From positions 1 to 35,766 of the IMG/VR virus record IMGVR_UViG_3300031999_000106: a stretch of 35,766 nt of DNA; one strand, given 5' to 3'. The stretch's first letter is position 1; the number at the start of each line of letters is the position of its first letter. Position numbers and translations under genes: made by a program. The DNA comes from a virus. Positions 1,222-34,382 of the stretch are shown piece by piece. The notes under the pieces are model-generated. The model saw only the letters and a list, made by a program, of their open reading frames with translations, was not told the DNA's origin and did not search any database.

Positions 1222-1941
1222 ATGCCTGCACTACAGTATAAAAATAAGACAAAGAAACAATATATGCAATTATGGAGAGAAAAAAATAAAGAATATGTCT
1301 ATCAATATGGTAAGCAATATAGAAAAGTTCACTATAAAGAAATTAGATTAAATTGGAGAAATTGGTGGTTAAAAAATAAAAAACTTTGGTATCAATATAG
1401 TAAAAAATATAGTGATAGTCATCGAGAAGCAATGCGACTCAATCAAAAAAATTGGCGATTAAGACATTTAGAAAAAGCAAGATTGGAAAAAAGAATATAT
1501 ATGCGTGATTATAATAAAAGAGAAGAAGTTAAAGAAAAACAAAGATTATGGAAATTAGAAAATCCTAATTATTCTAAAGAAAAACAAAGATTATGGCGAT
1601 TAAAAAATCCTAATTATTATAATTCAAAAGAAAGAAGGATAAAGAAAAAAGCTGAAAATGCTTTATATAAAGAGAGATTTAGAAATGGTGGTAAATTAAC
1701 TATTCAAGATATTCAAAAGGTCTATGAAGATAATATCAAGAAGTATGGAACATTGACTTGCTATCTCTGCTATATTTCAATTCAATTCGGTGAAGATAGT
1801 ATAGATCACAAGACGCCATTATCTCGTGGTGGCACTAATGTAAAAGAAAATTTAGATATAGCACATTTTGTCTGTAATTGTAGAAAACATAACAGAACTG
1901 AAGAAGAATATAGAATTTTACTTAAAAATCAAACTACTTAA
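1222..1941 (+). CDS. Free-standing HNH endonuclease
   Basis: The 239-residue protein has a long basic N-terminal region rich in Y, K, W and N with internal repeats (KEKQRLW-x-L-x-NPNY occurs twice near residues 110-135), probably for DNA contact. The C-terminal HNH domain (about residues 175-230) shows CYLC, then DHKTPLSRGGTN, then H-x2-CNxRKxN. HNH enzymes of this type nick or cut DNA and often spread as homing-type genes. The gene sits between a virion gene and the terminase block, starts 3 bases after the upstream stop without a clear ribosome site, and is more A-rich than its neighbours, which suggests insertion. A remnant of a close relative lies at 34110-34382. Confidence 0.85.
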   Translation: MPALQYKNKTKKQYMQLWREKNKEYVYQYGKQYRKVHYKEIRLNWRNWWLKNKKLWYQYSKKYSDSHREAMRLNQKNWRLRHLEKARLEKRIYMRDYNKREEVKEKQRLWKLENPNYSKEKQRLWRLKNPNYYNSKERRIKKKAENALYKERFRNGGKLTIQDIQKVYEDNIKKYGTLTCYLCYISIQFGEDSIDHKTPLSRGGTNVKENLDIAHFVCNCRKHNRTEEEYRILLKNQTT

Positions 1942-10310: not shown

Positions 10311-11534
10311 ATGCCTAAACCAACCAGATATAAATACTCTGTCGCAAACAGAAGAGGGGAACCTCTTACAGTAACAGCAGATTACTCGCTTACAGAAGCG
10401 GATATTATGAAAAGCGGTAATTTATTTATTAAAATTACCGCAATAGCTCAATTAACCCTTCCTGTTGCTAGCGATAATTTAAGGGGCGCTAGTATCTATG
10501 TAACAACTACAGATCAAGCAAATATATATACCGCTGCCGGTTTTGGCGGAGGTATTACTACAACTGATACAGTTCAGCTAGGAGCATATGAAACTGCTGA
10601 ATTTTGGTGCAATGGAACATATTGGTATGCTTTGAACGCTACTGTTGCTGCAGCTGGTTCTAGTTCTTCTAGTTCTTCAAGTAGTTCATTCAGTTCAAGT
10701 AGTTCAAGTAGTTCATCTAGTTCATTCAGTTCTAGTAGTTCCAGTTCTTCAAGTAGTTCATTCAGTTCAAGTAGTTCATCTAGTTCATTCAGTTCAAGCA
10801 GTTCAAGTAGTTCATCTAGTTCATTCAGTTCAAGTAGTTCATCTAGTTCATTCAGTTCAAGCAGTTCAAGTAGTTCATTCAGTTCAAGCAGTTCATCTAG
10901 TTCAGAAAGCTCAAGCAGTTCTTCCAGCAGTTCGAAAAGCTCAAGCAGTTCATCTAGTTCAGAAAGCTCAAGCAGTTCTTCCAGCAGTTCAGAAAGCTCA
11001 AGCAGTTCATCTAGTTCAGAAAGCTCAAGCAGTTCATCTAGTTCAAGCAATAGTTCTAGTTCATCTAGTTCCAGTTCGTTTACTGGTGAAGGTTGGTTAG
11101 GGTTAGGCGCTGAATCACTGTATTCAGTCTGTGAAGACGATGGTTCAAGCACTACTATCGAAGCCGCTTTGAATGGAACTAATGTTTGGAAACATACTGC
11201 TAATGAAACCCATTTCTTCATCATTGATTTAGGGGCAACTCGGAATGTCCAGCAAGTTAGAGGCCGTTCTGGTGGAGATGCAAGTTGTGATCCTACTAAT
11301 GTAAATATCTATGTTGGTGATAATCCGGCTGATTTTGGTGCTGCAATTTATTCAGGGATTACAAACTGGCAAGATACAACTATTTGGCAAGAAATTGATA
11401 TTGCCAATACTAATGGTAGATACGTTAAAGTAGAGATTACCACTACAGAAAGTGGGATTAAGACTCTTGAGTTCGGTGGGCCTGCTACCGGATATTTCAA
11501 GATATTCGATGTTTATGTGGCAGCGGCAGTTTAG
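10311..11534 (+). CDS. Head-fibre protein with poly-Ser stalk and discoidin-like domain
   Basis: Three parts are visible in 407 residues: an N-terminal beta domain (about 1-115) homologous to the preceding protein; a 140-residue serine tract with F spaced mostly 9 or 12 residues apart, then E, K and N spaced 9-10 apart; and a C-terminal domain (about 257-407). The C-terminal domain has IDLGATRNVQQVRGR, NVNIYVGDNPADFG, WQEIDIANTNGRYVKVEIT and IFDVYV, the pattern of an F5/8C (discoidin) carbohydrate-binding module. The layout suggests a capsid-bound base, a flexible stalk and a terminal sugar-binding head. The ribosome site is GGAGG at 10302. An antisense L/E-rich frame here is a by-product. 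Confidence 0.82.
   Translation: MPKPTRYKYSVANRRGEPLTVTADYSLTEADIMKSGNLFIKITAIAQLTLPVASDNLRGASIYVTTTDQANIYTAAGFGGGITTTDTVQLGAYETAEFWCNGTYWYALNATVAAAGSSSSSSSSSSFSSSSSSSSSSSFSSSSSSSSSSSFSSSSSSSSFSSSSSSSSSSSFSSSSSSSSFSSSSSSSSFSSSSSSSSESSSSSSSSSKSSSSSSSSESSSSSSSSSESSSSSSSSESSSSSSSSSNSSSSSSSSSFTGEGWLGLGAESLYSVCEDDGSSTTIEAALNGTNVWKHTANETHFFIIDLGATRNVQQVRGRSGGDASCDPTNVNIYVGDNPADFGAAIYSGITNWQDTTIWQEIDIANTNGRYVKVEITTTESGIKTLEFGGPATGYFKIFDVYVAAAV
10659..11078 (+). repeat. Serine-codon repeat tract
   Basis: These 140 codons are almost all serine, built from short units of AGT/AGC/TCA/TCT. The first part repeats TTCAGTTCAAGTAGTTCATC-type units; the second repeats TCAGAAAGCTCAAGCAGTTC-type units, also present in the gene at 2-1219. 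The 20-mer TTCAGAAAGCTCAAGCAGTT occurs at both 10958-10977 and 406-425. Confidence 0.9.
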
Positions 11535-11591: not shown

Positions 11592-11933
11592 ATGGCAGCG
11601 CCGGCATATAAATGTCCATTTAAAGTTAATGCGGGGGCTGGGATAACTTGCGAAGCTGTCGCTTGCGGTATGTATAATGTCATCGAAGAAGACTGCAATA
11701 TTATTATGGTTAACCGCAGGCGTTTTCAGTTATTAGGAAAAGTCGTTCCTAGTATAAATATTTATTCCAGTTCATCGAGTTCTAGTTCTTCTAATTCTAA
11801 TTCTAGCTCTTCATCTAGTTCGAGTATTTCTTCTTCTTCTAGTTCTAGTTCTAGTTTTTCCAACAGTTCTTCTTCTAGTTCTAGTTCTAGTTTTTCCAGC
11901 AGTTCTTCTTCTAGTTCTCGAAACGCTGAATAA
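11592..11933 (+). CDS. Small Cys-containing protein with poly-Ser tail
   Basis: The N-terminal 58 residues include four cysteines (CPFK, ITCEAVACGMY, EDCNII) and an IIMVNRRRFQLLG segment. The remaining 51 residues (codons 11766-11918) are mostly Ser with N, I and F at intervals, ending RNAE. A GGAG site precedes ATG. Its place between the head-fibre and connector genes and its serine tail suggest a minor virion protein. I do not recognise the N-terminal fold; the cysteines could bind metal. Confidence 0.7.
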   Translation: MAAPAYKCPFKVNAGAGITCEAVACGMYNVIEEDCNIIMVNRRRFQLLGKVVPSINIYSSSSSSSSSNSNSSSSSSSSISSSSSSSSSFSNSSSSSSSSSFSSSSSSSSRNAE

Positions 11934-13525: not shown

Positions 13526-14587
13526 ATGACCAGTAAGATTAGTAGAATTGCTCAGTTAGCGGGCAAAGTAGAAAGTAACAGCGGCTCAGCGGAAACATTA
13601 GATGCCACTAATGCAACAATATTAGCATATGATCCTGTAATGGATGCAGAGTTCGAACAGTTCAAAAGAAACCCAGTAACTAAACACATGTCGCGCTTCG
13701 GCTCAGAGCCGGGGGCAAGGAAGATGTCTTTGACATTTAAAGCAGAACTGATGGGCCCTGTTGCAAATTGTAGAGGCACTACCTTACCAATAACCCCATT
13801 TTTAAGGGCCTGTGGATTATCAGAAACTTTTCCGAATAACAATTCCAATCTTTATATTCCTATATCTAATAATTTTGTAACTTGCACAATAGCTAAATAT
13901 GAAGACGGATTCAGAAAGACAATGCTCGGCGCGGCCGGCAACGTAAAATTCCAGTTTAAAGTTGGCGAACCAATATTCTGCGAATTTGCCTTTCAAGGTA
14001 AATATTCAGAACATAGTGATACAGCATTATTGTCGCCGACATACCCGGCACAGGTGCCATTCATTTTTATGGGCGCTACGGTTACTATTGCCGGAAATTC
14101 GTTAGTACTGGATGCTTGCGAACTTGATTTACAAAATGAGATAGTGATTTCCCCAAGGCCACAGGATCCTTCCGGGATTGATTATGCGAAGATTACTGGA
14201 AGAAACCCGATAATGACATTTGATCCAGAATTGGTTGCGACTACTGACCATAATTTTTATAGTCTGATAATGTCCCGTTCAACCATGACGGTAGTAATAA
14301 TAATGAATGACTCTATTGGAAATTGTATCAATTTTTCACTTCCAGCAGTAAGATATACTGGTTTGAAAGAAGGAGATAGAGGTGGTATTAGGATAATGAA
14401 CGCTACCTGCGAAGTATGCAAGAATTCTGATGGCGGCAATGATGAACTGACTATAACAATGGGAGCTTCATCGAGTTCATCTATGTCTAGTTCTTCCACA
14501 TCTAGTTCTTCTAGTTCTAATAGTTCTAGTTCTAATTCTTCTAGTTCTAGTTCTTTTAGTTCTAGTTCTAGCTCTCGTAGCGTATAG
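13526..14587 (+). CDS. Major tail tube protein with poly-Ser C-terminus
   Basis: The 353-residue protein has a body of about 314 residues with tail-tube features: GSEPGARKMSLTFKAELMG early on, KFQFKVGEPIFCEFAFQGKY in the middle, and repeated beta strands. The last ~40 residues form a serine tract (14468-14575) with M, T, N and F interruptions, ending RSV. Position before the chaperones and tape measure supports the call. Tube proteins form the hexameric rings of the tail and often carry C-terminal Ig-like decoration domains; here a serine tail takes that place, so each ring could display six tails. Confidence 0.82.
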   Translation: MTSKISRIAQLAGKVESNSGSAETLDATNATILAYDPVMDAEFEQFKRNPVTKHMSRFGSEPGARKMSLTFKAELMGPVANCRGTTLPITPFLRACGLSETFPNNNSNLYIPISNNFVTCTIAKYEDGFRKTMLGAAGNVKFQFKVGEPIFCEFAFQGKYSEHSDTALLSPTYPAQVPFIFMGATVTIAGNSLVLDACELDLQNEIVISPRPQDPSGIDYAKITGRNPIMTFDPELVATTDHNFYSLIMSRSTMTVVIIMNDSIGNCINFSLPAVRYTGLKEGDRGGIRIMNATCEVCKNSDGGNDELTITMGASSSSSMSSSSTSSSSSSNSSSSNSSSSSSFSSSSSSRSV

Positions 14588-17758: not shown

Positions 17759-18607
17759 ATGGCGAATTCTGATATTTTAGTTTTGAATCCTGAGTTTGGC
17801 CTTACTCAAACAATTTTTTTCAATACTTTAATCACTGAATCCGAGTCTGGCAAAGAATACCGCGACGCTTTATGGGATCATGGCTTAAGGGAATACCGGC
17901 TTAATTGCGAATTCCTTACCCAGGCAGCAATGGATGAAATTTGGAGATTTTATATAGATAGGAAAGGCGCTTATGATTTCTTTTTGGTTAAAATCCTTAC
18001 AGAATATCAGATATCTGATGAAAATGTTGGAACAGGTAATGGTGGGACAAAAGTATTCAATTTAGATTATTTTCCAGTTGATACAGTAGCTAATCATTCA
18101 TGCACAGTTGGAGGCGTAGCTAATACTGATTATACATTAAGCAATGATTTTGACAACGAAGTGTCAAAAATTACTTTTGGTACTGCACCTGCTAGTGGTG
18201 CAATTCTTGTTACTTATGAATATTATTTTAAAGTTAGATTTGCTGAAGATAAACTAACTAGAGAATTGGCGGCATATCAATTATTGCATGCCGGTATGGT
18301 CTTAAAAGAAGTACGTTGGACTACTTATACTACTCCTACCGGAGTTAGTTCTTCAAGTAGTTCATCCAGTTTTTCTTCTAGCTCTTCAAGCTCAAGTTCA
18401 TATTCCAGCTCTTCAAGTTCTTCTTCAAAATCAAGTTCTTCTTCTAGCTCATCCAGCAGCAGTTCTTCTTCATCCAGCTCATCGAGTTCCAGCTCTTCTT
18501 CAAGTTCAAGCTCTTCAAGTTTCTCCAGTTCATCAAGTTCGTCTAGTTTTTCATCAAGCTCATCCAGCTCATCTAGTTCAAGAAGTTCTAGCAGTTCAGG
18601 AGCTTAA
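17759..18607 (+). CDS. DUF2460-like distal tail protein with poly-Ser tail
   Basis: Residues 1-75 and about 160-195 (DALWDHGLREYRLNCEF, then FKVRFAEDKLTRELAAY) resemble the DUF2460/TIGR02217 tail-tip family (GTA ORFG12-like). A small beta insert lies between them (GNGGTKVFNLDYFP, DYTLS, APASGAILVTYEY). The last 84 residues (codons 18347-18598) are serine with rare F, Y, K and R. These serine codons are less regular than in the genes at 2 and 10311, as if the tract were older. The next three genes are the other members of a GTA-type tip set. Confidence 0.75.
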   Translation: MANSDILVLNPEFGLTQTIFFNTLITESESGKEYRDALWDHGLREYRLNCEFLTQAAMDEIWRFYIDRKGAYDFFLVKILTEYQISDENVGTGNGGTKVFNLDYFPVDTVANHSCTVGGVANTDYTLSNDFDNEVSKITFGTAPASGAILVTYEYYFKVRFAEDKLTRELAAYQLLHAGMVLKEVRWTTYTTPTGVSSSSSSSSFSSSSSSSSSYSSSSSSSSKSSSSSSSSSSSSSSSSSSSSSSSSSSSSSSFSSSSSSSSFSSSSSSSSSSRSSSSSGA

Positions 18608-25616: not shown

Positions 25617-25647
25617 AAGCGCCGTAGTCATTACGGCGCTTTTTTTA
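25617..25647 (+). terminator. Strong intrinsic terminator of the late operon
   Basis: AGCGCCGTA (25618-25626) and TACGGCGCT (25632-25640) form a GC-rich 9-bp stem with a 5-base loop, followed by T at 25640-25647. It separates the convergent plus and minus transcription units; the T-run reaches the stop codon of the minus-strand HNH gene. Confidence 0.93.
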
Positions 25648-26088
25648 TTGGTTAGAAACTACTTCTGTATAACCTAAAGAACCCAAAAATTCTATCAAAT
25701 GATAAGATCCTTCAACAATATGAATTCTTTTGTTGCAACCTATTGATTTTCTTAATGTTAAGTTATATATCTTACCAGTGTTACAGTTTTGAAGCACACT
25801 GGATAGCGTTCTTTCAAGTGTTACAGCATTTCTATGCCTTAAAACTGGCAAATCTGCCTCATTTTGACTAGCTATGTCTGATTGATGTAGGATTGCCAAA
25901 TGGTGTTCTTGACAAACTGGCTGTAAATTGTTTAATCGATTATTATTATGATTCTCGTCTTTGTGATGAAGTGTTTCTAAAACTTTATCACAGAAATTGC
26001 ACTTTCTCTGTTGTTCTTTCATTCGTTCTAAAATTTTACAAAAGCGGTATTTATTCATATATTCTTTAGCTTTTTCCCTGTTTCTCAT
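25645..26088 (-). CDS. HNH endonuclease (cassette B)
   Basis: The 147-residue product shows a short basic start with KEYMNKYR, then CNFC, LHHKDENHNNNRLNNLQPVC and EHH, a complete HNH/zinc pattern at about residues 29-67. The C-terminal 80 residues are of unknown fold and may bind DNA. I chose the ATG at 26088, which has AGGAGG 6-7 bases upstream; the longer reading from 26154 has no ribosome site and begins inside the leader. A structured RNA and its promoter lie upstream, so this looks like a self-contained homing cassette. Confidence 0.8.
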   Translation of the reverse strand: MRNREKAKEYMNKYRFCKILERMKEQQRKCNFCDKVLETLHHKDENHNNNRLNNLQPVCQEHHLAILHQSDIASQNEADLPVLRHRNAVTLERTLSSVLQNCNTGKIYNLTLRKSIGCNKRIHIVEGSYHLIEFLGSLGYTEVVSNQ

Positions 26089-26169
26089 CAGGCATCCTCC
26101 TACGAAACATAAATATCTTTGATTAACGCAACTTGCTTCTAAACAATACTCCATTTAACACCTAATATG

Positions 26170-26264
26170 AAAGGCACCTTTCGGACAGTTAAAGGATAAG
26201 CGGTTAAGCTCTCCAGTCCTACGAGTGCCTTTGTTAACAAAATAAAATCCGCCTTCCTTTAACT
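26170..26264 (-). ncRNA. Pseudoknotted leader RNA, copy B
   Basis: Read on the minus strand, P1 is AGUUAAAGGA plus GCGG (26264-26249) pairing with CCGC and UCCUUUAACU (26203-26187). P2 is AAAGGCAC (26232-26225) pairing with GUGCCUUU (26177-26170). A short GGAC/GUCC helix (26219-26216 with 26186-26183) extends P2. P1 and P2 interlock as a pseudoknot. GCGGAUUUU and CUUAACCG are shared with copy A. It begins about 7 nt after the -10 of the promoter at 26271-26299 and precedes the HNH start. Confidence 0.65.
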
Positions 26265-26270
26265 AATCAA

Positions 26271-26299
26271 AGTATAACATATTAGGTATTGATTTTCAA
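26271..26299 (-). promoter_or_regulatory. Promoter of HNH cassette B
   Basis: On the minus strand, TTGAAA (26299-26294), a 17-bp spacer and TATACT (26276-26271) form a good sigma70-like promoter. It overlaps the 3' end of the small zinc-protein gene, and its expected start coincides with the first bases of the pseudoknot RNA. Confidence 0.72.
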
Positions 26300-26488
26300 G
26301 ACATTTTTGTTTTCCCTGTTTTCCCGTTTTACCTGCTTCCGGCAACATTTTATACATATGTAACCAACTATTCTATCTTCTAATTTGCCTTCTTTATTAG
26401 GCATTTTTTTATGCGATACTAAAGGAAAATTTTGCGAAGTTGCTTTATGTTCTTCCATGCAAATTCTGCATCTTAATTTTAATTTCAT
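26282..26488 (-). CDS. Small four-Cys zinc protein
   Basis: The 68-residue protein has CRIC near the start and CIKCC at about 48-52, a pair that could bind one zinc, and a basic C-terminus (RKQVKRENRENKN). Its ATG overlaps the stop of the upstream HNH gene (ATGA), so the two are co-translated. It could be an accessory DNA-binding protein of the HNH cassette; no specific family is recognised. Confidence 0.62.
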   Translation of the reverse strand: MKLKLRCRICMEEHKATSQNFPLVSHKKMPNKEGKLEDRIVGYICIKCCRKQVKRENRENKNVLKINT

Positions 26489-27216
26489 ATCTTGGGCATC
26501 CTTTCTTCATTTATTGTTTCTATGCCATTGGTTCGCGGGATATTGAGAATATATCGTATTAAATTTTTTAAAAATTTTTTTCTATTTTTAGTAGGTATTC
26601 CACCATTGCATTGTAAACATAACATTCCAAAATCAGCTTTCTTCCATATTTTCTCATTTTCAGGAGTTCGAGGATTAAATTTAAGCCATGCCGTAGGACT
26701 TGCACGGTTAATAATATTATGGGGATTTTTATGGTCAAATTGAATTATATTAACTTTAATTTTTCGATTAAAATATATAAATTTACCACAGACTTGGCAA
26801 TTAGTCTTTTTAGGAATATAACCTTCCCAAGATTTTAAATTTTCTATACATCGTTTTATTATAACATTTTTAAAATAGTTTTTAGTCCATATTTTCTTCT
26901 TTTTTATATTTTTAGGAATTGAATAATATTTTTTCATATATTTTAAGATTCTCTTTTTGTTTTTTAGATAATATTTTTTACTCTGTTTTCTTATTTTTTC
27001 TTTATTTTTTTCTTTATATTGTTTATAATATTCTTTAGGGTAATTTTTTCGATAATTCCTAAAATATTCTTTATTTTTTCGGAGATATTTTTTATTATAA
27101 ATCTTCATTCTCTTCTTAACCTCTTTACGTTTATTATAGTGTTTCATATATAATTTCTTTTTTGCTTTATTTTTTTGATACCATCTTTTCCAAATTTCTC
27201 TTTTGTAAATAGACAT
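26485..27216 (-). CDS. HNH-type endonuclease with basic Tyr/Lys-rich N-terminus (cassette A)
   Basis: The 243-residue protein has about 110 N-terminal residues of K/Y/N-rich repeats (KEYYKQYKEKNKEKI, then QSKKYYLKNKKRILKYMKKYY in two pieces), comparable to the N-terminus of the HNH at 1222; both share YM-(K/R)-x-YNKR-(K/E)-EVK. The catalytic part has CQVC, IQFDHKNPHN and MLCLQCNGG, an HNH-like zinc domain at about 140-225. The start lacks a ribosome site: it lies 18 bases after a pseudoknot RNA. Very A/T-rich, like an acquired gene. Confidence 0.8.
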   Translation of the reverse strand: MSIYKREIWKRWYQKNKAKKKLYMKHYNKRKEVKKRMKIYNKKYLRKNKEYFRNYRKNYPKEYYKQYKEKNKEKIRKQSKKYYLKNKKRILKYMKKYYSIPKNIKKKKIWTKNYFKNVIIKRCIENLKSWEGYIPKKTNCQVCGKFIYFNRKIKVNIIQFDHKNPHNIINRASPTAWLKFNPRTPENEKIWKKADFGMLCLQCNGGIPTKNRKKFLKNLIRYILNIPRTNGIETINEERMPKI

Positions 27217-27233
27217 AATTTATTTAAAATAAA

Positions 27234-27328
27234 AGACGGGTTTCAGTTATCTTGAGAGAAACGGTTAAGTTTCTCAAACTTACTTCCCGTCTATTTTAGA
27301 TACAAAAATTCCGCTTCTCTCAAGATAA
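27234..27328 (-). ncRNA. Pseudoknotted leader RNA, copy A
   Basis: Minus-strand P1 is UUAUCUUGAGAGAAGCGG (27328-27311) pairing over 18 positions with CCGUUUCUCUCAAGAUAA (27264-27247); the only non-Watson-Crick pair is G27314-U27261, which would be an A-C mismatch on the plus strand, so the minus strand is the RNA. P2 is AGACGGG (27292-27286) with CCCGUCU (27240-27234). P3 is UAAGUUU-GAG-AAACUUA (27282-27266). P2 is followed by a U-rich run, so P2 may double as a terminator. A promoter lies just upstream. Confidence 0.72.
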
Positions 27329-27332
27329 TTAA

Positions 27333-27361
27333 ATCTTAACATATATTTTTTCTTTTGTCAA
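27333..27361 (-). promoter_or_regulatory. Promoter of HNH cassette A
   Basis: On the minus strand, TTGACA (27361-27356) is 17 bp from TAAGAT (27338-27333). The predicted start falls within the first bases of the pseudoknot RNA, the same arrangement as in cassette B. Confidence 0.7.
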
Positions 27362-27393: not shown

Positions 27394-27417
27394 GCGATTT
27401 GTCAATTGTCAAATCGC
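27394..27417. promoter_or_regulatory. 24-bp near-perfect palindrome
   Basis: GCGATTTG-T-CAATTG-T-CAAATCGC is symmetrical except for one T-T pair. It lies between the radical SAM gene and HNH cassette A. It lacks a T-run, so it looks more like a protein-binding site than a terminator, although a transcript hairpin is possible. It may mark the insertion border of the cassette. Confidence 0.6.
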
Positions 27418-27456: not shown

Positions 27457-28353
27457 TTATAATAATTTTTTATATCTACTCTGATTAACCATAAAAGTAT
27501 AAGCCTGTGGATAATCCATTTTCATAAATAACCAAGGCATATTTACCCATTGAGCTAATTTGATATATTTATCATCATAATACTTATCTTCAAAACGCAT
27601 ACAATATGGACGGATAAATAGTTTTTCTTTTATGGCTATATTTTTTAAAGTCCTAAATCTATATAAGTCTTCTTCAAAAGTAGAATTAAAACCAACTAAA
27701 ACATAAAATCTAAATGATTTAATTTTTGCTTTCTTTAAAATTGATATTCCTTGCTCAATTAATGGCTGATTCTTTATATTATCCCAAGCAAACCATAATT
27801 CAGACAATTTAGTCTTCTTTAATTCTTTCGCTATTTCATTGTTTAATAATCTTATATCTAATCCTTGATTATATTCTCCTTGTATTTTTTCTTTTTGTAA
27901 TTGTTTTAAGACTAAAATTAAATGTTCTTTTAAAGCTGTTGCATTATTGTCCAAAAAGACAACTGATTTTGCTTTACCATTCCAAATATCATATAAATCT
28001 GCTTCTACTTTTATATTTCCTTCTGATTTCCATACAATACAAAATGGACATTTTCGGATACACCCTCGAGTAGTAAAACCTAAATTGATATGAGGCTTTA
28101 CTATTTCTATTTCTTTCGGTAATTTTTTATATATATCATACCCAGAACCGCCGATTTCTGCTCTGCCTTCAAAATCTCTGCATTTATATTTATTTTTAGT
28201 AAAGATGCAAGATACATAAGTTTTGTCAACTGAGTTTATAAATAGTTCGTTATTCCAGATAACTTCGTCTCCTTTATCTAGATGATATTTTTCAATCTTC
28301 TTGAGAGCAAAATTAGGTATCTTACTATCTATATCAATTAGTAGTATTTTCAT
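27457..28353 (-). CDS. Radical SAM enzyme of unknown substrate
   Basis: The 298-residue protein has the Fe4S4-binding C98-x3-C102-x2-C105 (CIRKCPFC) in a TTRG context. Before it is a GGSGYD segment; after it come a DNN and a QGLDIRLL strand typical of the radical SAM barrel. It starts with KILLIDIDSKIPNFAL, like an N-terminal Rossmann-like or B12-binding-like part. Similar small radical SAM proteins occur in other phages, as I recall, without known function. It shares 20 bases with the upstream gene, so it belongs to the early operon rather than to the HNH cassettes. Possible roles are nucleotide, tRNA or protein modification. Confidence 0.82.
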   Translation of the reverse strand: MKILLIDIDSKIPNFALKKIEKYHLDKGDEVIWNNELFINSVDKTYVSCIFTKNKYKCRDFEGRAEIGGSGYDIYKKLPKEIEIVKPHINLGFTTRGCIRKCPFCIVWKSEGNIKVEADLYDIWNGKAKSVVFLDNNATALKEHLILVLKQLQKEKIQGEYNQGLDIRLLNNEIAKELKKTKLSELWFAWDNIKNQPLIEQGISILKKAKIKSFRFYVLVGFNSTFEEDLYRFRTLKNIAIKEKLFIRPYCMRFEDKYYDDKYIKLAQWVNMPWLFMKMDYPQAYTFMVNQSRYKKLL

Positions 28354-34109: not shown

Positions 34110-34382
34110 TCTGTATTCTTCTTCGGTTTTGTTATGTTTTCTATAATTACAACTCATATGTGCTATATCTAAATTTTCTCTTTTATTAGTACCTTCTCTC
34201 GATAAAGGTGTTTTATGGTCTATACTGTCTTCTCCAAACTGAATTGGAATATAGCAAAGATAACAAGTAAGCGTTCCATACTTCTTGATGTTATCTTCGT
34301 AAATTTCTTGAACAGTTTGAATTGTTAATTTTCCTCCTTTCTTAAATCTTTCTTTATATAAAGCATTTATAGCTTTCTTTTT
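34110..34382 (-). pseudogene. 5'-truncated HNH remnant
   Basis: The minus frame encodes a stretch matching the intact HNH at 1222-1941 from KKKA-x-NALYKERF through CYLCY, SIDHKTPLSR, ENLDIAH to TEEEYR: 76 of 91 residues identical in my hand alignment. The complete HNH motif is present, but the N-terminal half is missing, an in-frame TAA stands just upstream, and there is no start codon there. The frame runs on to a stop at 34053. Its upstream edge overlaps the end of the preceding zinc-protein gene, and its downstream edge falls at the ribosome site of the next gene. Confidence 0.85.

Follow-up and report, generated by a model that had tools for sequence, protein, structure and literature searches.

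Pseudoknot riboswitches with a terminator platform, such as the fluoride, preQ1 and ZTP classes, appear to be the nearest functional analogue of the phage RNA described here, which likewise occupies a 5' leader, forms a pseudoknot (of helices P1 and P2) with a conserved unpaired core, and has a terminator-like end before the gene. Unlike them, it has no Rfam match, its putative terminator stem is itself a pseudoknot helix, and it serves nucleases and replication initiators rather than metabolic genes. Plasmid rep genes such as that of pT181 are attenuated through terminator-based leader control, switched by an antisense RNA. We propose terminator-based leader control of a replication initiator for the phage RNA as well, but antisense control was rejected because its loops are conserved while its stems vary, the reverse of what such control would favour.

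The T4-type homing endonucleases I-TevI, segB and mobE have leader hairpins that cover the ribosome-binding site (RBS) in early or middle transcripts; the nearest case among this type is Seg43 of Aeromonas phage 25, where the RBS is open and a hairpin lies just ahead of it (PMC2988022). Like these hairpins, the phage RNA is a structured element with which a homing endonuclease message begins, and it is believed to restrict expression or set its timing; unlike them, it has its own promoter and a structure conserved across a family, and it leaves the RBS outside its helices, the GGAGG Shine-Dalgarno sequence, where present, lying past the last helix arm (P2a') and its U tract. The putRNA of HK022, which also acts in cis as a structured RNA close to where phage transcripts begin, has two stem-loops, binds RNA polymerase and suppresses downstream termination (PMC9378689), whereas P1 and P2 of the phage leader are interlocked.

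The two window copies

The window, a 35,766-nucleotide (nt) stretch of viral DNA (IMG/VR record IMGVR_UViG_3300031999_000106), carries two copies of the RNA on the minus strand, copy A at 26264-26170 and copy B at 27328-27234. Both had been proposed in an initial annotation, and the computational analysis reported here found its coordinates, strand, boxes and interlocked layout all correct. Both copies fold as P1-P2-P1'-P2', and the pattern GCGGAWTTT-N25..55-CTTAACCG has exactly two matches in the window, whereas 100 shuffles contain none.

In copy B, the promoter (27333..27361; TTGACA at 27361-27356, 17 nt, TAAGAT at 27338-27333) is followed by the P1 5' arm UUAUCUUGAGAGAAGCGG (27311..27328), the P2a 5' arm AGACGGG (27286..27292), a segment (27277..27284) with the AGUA of a loop-E-like step (27284-27281) and the P2b 5' arm AGUU (27280-27277), the P1 3' arm CCGUUUCUCUCAAGAUAA (27247..27264), a segment (27234..27248) with P2b' AACU (27248-27245), GAA (27244-27242) and P2a' CCCGUCU (27240-27234), and a U-rich tract, UUUAUUUU (27226..27233), all on the minus strand. 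Behind it lies an HNH-like open reading frame (ORF) of 243 aa (CxxC...DH...CxxC; 26485..27216, minus; phrog_9443, E 2.2e-3). Copy A, also on the minus strand, has its promoter at 26271..26299 (TTGAAA at 26299-26294, 17 nt, TATACT at 26276-26271), the P1 5' arm AGUUAAAGGAAGGCGG at 26249..26264, a segment (26216..26232) with the P2a 5' arm AAAGGCACU (26232-26224), CGUA (26223-26220) and the P2b 5' arm GGAC (26219-26216), the P1 3' arm CCGCUUAUCCUUUAACU with one base bulged at 26187..26203, and a segment (26170..26186) with P2b' GUCC (26186-26183), GAA (26182-26180) and P2a' GGUGCCUUU (26178-26170); the ORF behind it (25645..26154, minus; 169 aa) is HNH-like as well (phrog_8048, E 4.5e-4). The HNH likeness of the two ORFs is weak at these PHROG E-values, and Pfam at 0.01 gave zero matches for either.

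These two copies are not the best examples of the RNA family, the U tract past P2a' being weak in copy A and copy B being without a clear Shine-Dalgarno sequence. Nested MFE folding gave a clear result for copy B (z -5.0) and an uninformative one for copy A (z -1.6), and it reveals P1 alone, as expected of a pseudoknot. A terminator scan did not report P2, because the loop limit of the scan is 8 nt.

Several other features of the window were recorded. A phage radical SAM protein (27457-28353, minus; phrog_9298, E 3.5e-59) is encoded just upstream of copy B, and between its gene and promoter B, at 27394-27417, lies a near-perfect, spacerless inverted repeat with 12-nt arms (GCGATTTGTCAA/TTGTCAAATCGC). 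A small ORF of 68 aa with two CxxC pairs (26282-26488, minus) sits between the HNH gene of copy B and promoter A. A third HNH gene (1222-1941, plus) is without the pseudoknot leader, and a stretch at 34111-34334 (minus) resembles HNH-coding DNA of L130 and is perhaps an HNH remnant. Several virion-region proteins (10311-11534, 11592-11933, 13526-14587 and 17759-18607, plus) have long serine-rich (SSSSSF-type) tracts.

A conserved family of interlocked RNAs

A loose pattern scan of IMG/VR, filtered on P1 and P2 pairing, was the first step and yielded further copies in other contexts, all directly upstream of HNH ORFs; additional patterns raised the set to the 24 distinct members that were aligned. 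A covariance model of P1 only (R1) then added copies from outside this alignment, several in the same phages (L116, L101, L239, L110, L128, L255, L258, L265, L280 and three in L229), and model R2 added five more. In all, the patterns and covariance models yielded 42 distinct copies, most of them from IMG/VR phages, a count of distinct sequences and not of independent events, with many contigs being fragments; single phages often hold 2-4 copies. The family is therefore larger than the initial annotation described, and the homologues with compensatory changes that it called for were found. Among genome contigs, the first pattern had 0 matches and the second matched 8 contigs, with the element in two (MAG contigs). 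Whole-genome scans of the phyla of these two MAG contigs matched 2 of 384 and 4 of 395 genomes, the two starting genomes included, and among the other four matches only L268 looked real; in these host phyla, the RNA is rare in bacterial genomes.

Searches of Rfam at the gathering score and at relaxed E-values gave nothing credible over the element, in agreement with the original statement that no described RNA family matches, and a literature search of open-licence papers found no description of it. DNA similarity to GenBank phages was limited to short weak pieces, where there was any match. We conclude that this is an undescribed structured RNA family, strongly conserved, in many uncultivated phages. 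In the related phages L113/L114 and L162/L167 (∼74% identical over 4 kb), the cassette occupies the same place, and the stretch covering the RNA and the start of the nuclease is unalignable by blastn, as if replaced or fast-evolving.

P1 comprises ∼16-18 bp, namely CGG/CCG and about 13 bp of highly variable sequence, and closes a loop containing the 5' half of P2; P2 consists of a G+C-rich P2a (5-7 bp) and a P2b of 4 bp. The initial model is refined in two respects: CGG/CCG is paired as the inner end of P1 and not single-stranded, and an AGUA/GAA internal loop lies within P2. AGUA opposite GAA is the signature of a loop-E (bulged-G) step, and the internal loop is probably loop-E-like. With AUUUUUUAUGUC in L1 and ACUUAA in L2, it makes up the conserved core, L1 as a whole being AUUUUUUAUGUCUAAA-like and L2 terminating in ACUUAA. 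A leader peptide in L1 (AUGUCUAAA) was considered and rejected, because by eye about one member in three lacks the AUG and the reading frame is not preserved.

Covariation, first noted from two copies, was upheld by the 24 aligned members and by later copies outside the alignment. Over 21 pairs, 93.1% of helix cells pair in the aligned sequences (shuffled, 66%; slid, 40-48%), both sides change at 16 of the 21 pairs, and the covariation value is 0.764 (shuffled, 0.233; slid, at most 0.165). Arm-swap controls agree, as for P2a and for P2b none of 20000 permutations attains the mean obtained with the own arms. In copies left out of the alignment, direct reading of the sequences shows the usually invariant CGG/CCG changed to CAG/CUG in L116, L239, L255 and L229, and to UGG/UCA in L110. 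Among 18 copies that came later, a crude automatic detector mostly recovered the interlocked helices; it mis-assigned three (L128, L229 at 1291 and L440), which were read by eye. One could envision the inverted arms as a DNA-level recombination or homing site, given that the cassettes are probably mobile and that several phages hold multiple copies. However, G-U is tolerated 48 times in the helices and A-C 11 times, which supports an RNA of this strand, the unpaired segments are conserved, and orientation and spacing to promoter and start codon are strict, so that a DNA element is barely conceivable.

In both window copies, P1 begins 6 nt past a sigma-70-type -10 box, with the -35 box at 17 nt, and the -10 box lies 5-7 nt ahead of P1 in 41 of the 42 copies; for the exception (L111), the script chose another site, and TAAACT is found by eye near the usual place. 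The placing of each copy at +1 of its own promoter draws its support from this fixed spacing and not from promoter score, because by score alone the window region is no richer than its shuffles (13 found, 10.6 expected; the region is A+T-rich). The sigma-70-type promoter would thus set the transcript start at P1 or within a few nt of it. This bears on the resemblance to HDV-like ribozymes raised at the outset. Such ribozymes are cleaved at the 5' end of a short P1 (about 7 bp) and have a P3/P1.1/P4 core. A self-cleaving RNA of this topology would account for the interlocked P1 and P2 and for the conserved unpaired core, but P1 is about 16 bp in all members, a known catalytic core could not be recognised, Rfam has no match, and cleavage 5' of P1 would do nothing because the predicted transcript already starts there. 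We consider this reading very improbable.

Downstream genes and the case for attenuation

By motif-based classes, ∼36 of the 42 copies lie ahead of nuclease-type ORFs of several HNH types (NUMOD3/HNH_3, HNH/HNH_5 and phrog_3377-type proteins). The HNH is apparently internally shortened in L165, and by eye the RNA is kept before an apparent HNH C-terminal remnant in L112 and L181. Co-occurrence with HNH genes is not exclusive: three copies lie ahead of phage replication initiators, namely a replication initiator in L265 (phrog_270), a replisome organizer in L440 (phrog_13246) and a DnaD-like helicase loader in L229 at 1291 (phrog_186), and a divergent copy in a bacterial MAG (L268) lies ∼300 nt before an ORF recognised by eye as tyrosine-integrase-like. 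Between this last copy and the integrase-like ORF, at 1249-1315 (minus), there is also a weak Rfam match to int-alpA RNA (30.2 bits; gathering, 35.8).

The RNA is thus the constant part and the downstream gene the variable part, which favours control of expression in general over an RNA subunit specific to the nuclease. The recognition RNA suggested in the initial annotation is weakened accordingly. Nuclease genes behind most copies could suggest an RNA subunit or guide comparable to omega RNA, but different nuclease types and three replication initiators follow the same RNA, Rfam has no HEARO match, and the positions that vary belong to self-paired helices, which leaves no variable segment free. 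The RNA is thus not tied to one nuclease as its partner and has no free guide to offer; we give such a role very little chance. For the HNH copies, it is plausible that the promoter and RNA are part of the mobile cassette.

The element keeps one orientation and sits in the 5' leader, after the promoter and before the start codon, and it is very probably a cis-regulatory leader of some kind, a statement likelier to be right than any single mechanism. Among the functions first proposed, a transcription attenuator fits best because, in nearly all copies, a U-rich tract (mostly 6-9 T in 10 nt, about 7/10, against a background of 3.0) follows P2a' just upstream of the start codon. We therefore envision, with about an even chance of being right, a cis-acting 5' leader of phage genes whose terminator stem is interlocked with the 5'-terminal helix around the conserved core. 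P1 would fold first; the core would organise the pseudoknot, whereupon P2a could close as an intrinsic terminator and the gene would stay off, or else polymerase would read through into the nuclease or replication gene. A small molecule, a phage or host protein, or folding kinetics could tip the balance, and HNH genes may use the leader to hold down, or to time, the production of a nuclease that could do harm. The promoter, the helices, the U tract and the spacing are read in the sequence itself; termination, the order of folding and a switching signal are what we infer. The covariation of both helices, the arm-swap controls, the promoter spacing, the U tract, the near-constant distance to the start codon and the excess of G-U over A-C all favour attenuation, as do unrelated U-tract-ending pseudoknots before replication initiators (see below), and that one RNA stands ahead of several nuclease types as well as three replication initiators suggests a control of expression that does not depend on what the gene encodes. 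Against it stand the weak U tract of copy A and a P2 loop that is long for a terminator. No helix that could compete as an antiterminator was found to be conserved, a GGUU/AACC pairing being possible in some members only.

Alternatively, the leader could act on translation or message stability, the 5'-terminal P1 protecting the message and the pseudoknot near the start codon limiting ribosome entry, with no termination. The position of P1 at the 5' end, a helix end about 10-20 nt before the start codon, and the regulation of T4 homing endonucleases by leader hairpins (PMC2988022) all suit such a role. However, it has no need for a U-rich tract directly after a G+C-rich stem, and the open position of the Shine-Dalgarno sequence does not favour it; we regard it as unlikely, though with some chance. 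Nor is it probable that the RNA attaches to the polymerase during transcription and alters its elongation through terminators further downstream. Such an RNA would sit at the start of phage transcripts and require no specific downstream gene, as HK022 putL sits just downstream of the early promoter PL (PMC9378689), but putRNA is two stem-loops of about 70 nt with no interlocked pseudoknot, whereas the phage element has a terminator-like end inside it and most copies serve a single short gene. We consider this quite improbable.

Replication-initiator loci and significance

To the attenuator reading could be added the tentative possibility of a ligand- or factor-sensing switch of a new class, with the terminator built into the pseudoknot that does the sensing. 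Phage replication genes would be its native setting, from which homing endonucleases would have captured it, and homing would then be tied to the state of the infected cell. The replication initiator gene does not have the RNA as a general feature, since this family occurs at just one of 80 replication-initiator loci and R2 found nothing when run on the 12.3 kb that surround the replication homologue of Pseudanabaena phage Pan5. A generic detector of interlocked helices that terminate in a U tract was run on 79 homologues of the L265 replication initiator; L445, which is the L265 locus itself, and six further loci exceeded all 237 shuffles in score. L447 (upstream of 3001) is striking, its P1 having 19 bp, its P2 13 bp, and its loops being unrelated; by eye, the U tract of L497 is unconvincing, leaving five of the six credible. 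These five (L447, L450, L473, L498 and L510) have, immediately ahead of the start codon of a phage replication initiator, interlocked pseudoknots that are unrelated in sequence and end in a U tract, and there is possibly a wider class of pseudoknot-terminator leaders before such genes, to which the present RNA may belong.

Because a terminator-like stem is embedded in the leader, a simple in vitro assay is possible, and the RNA offers a testable handle on the restraint of selfish homing endonucleases and of some phage replication genes. If the core senses something, it would be, to our knowledge, the first such switch on homing endonucleases.
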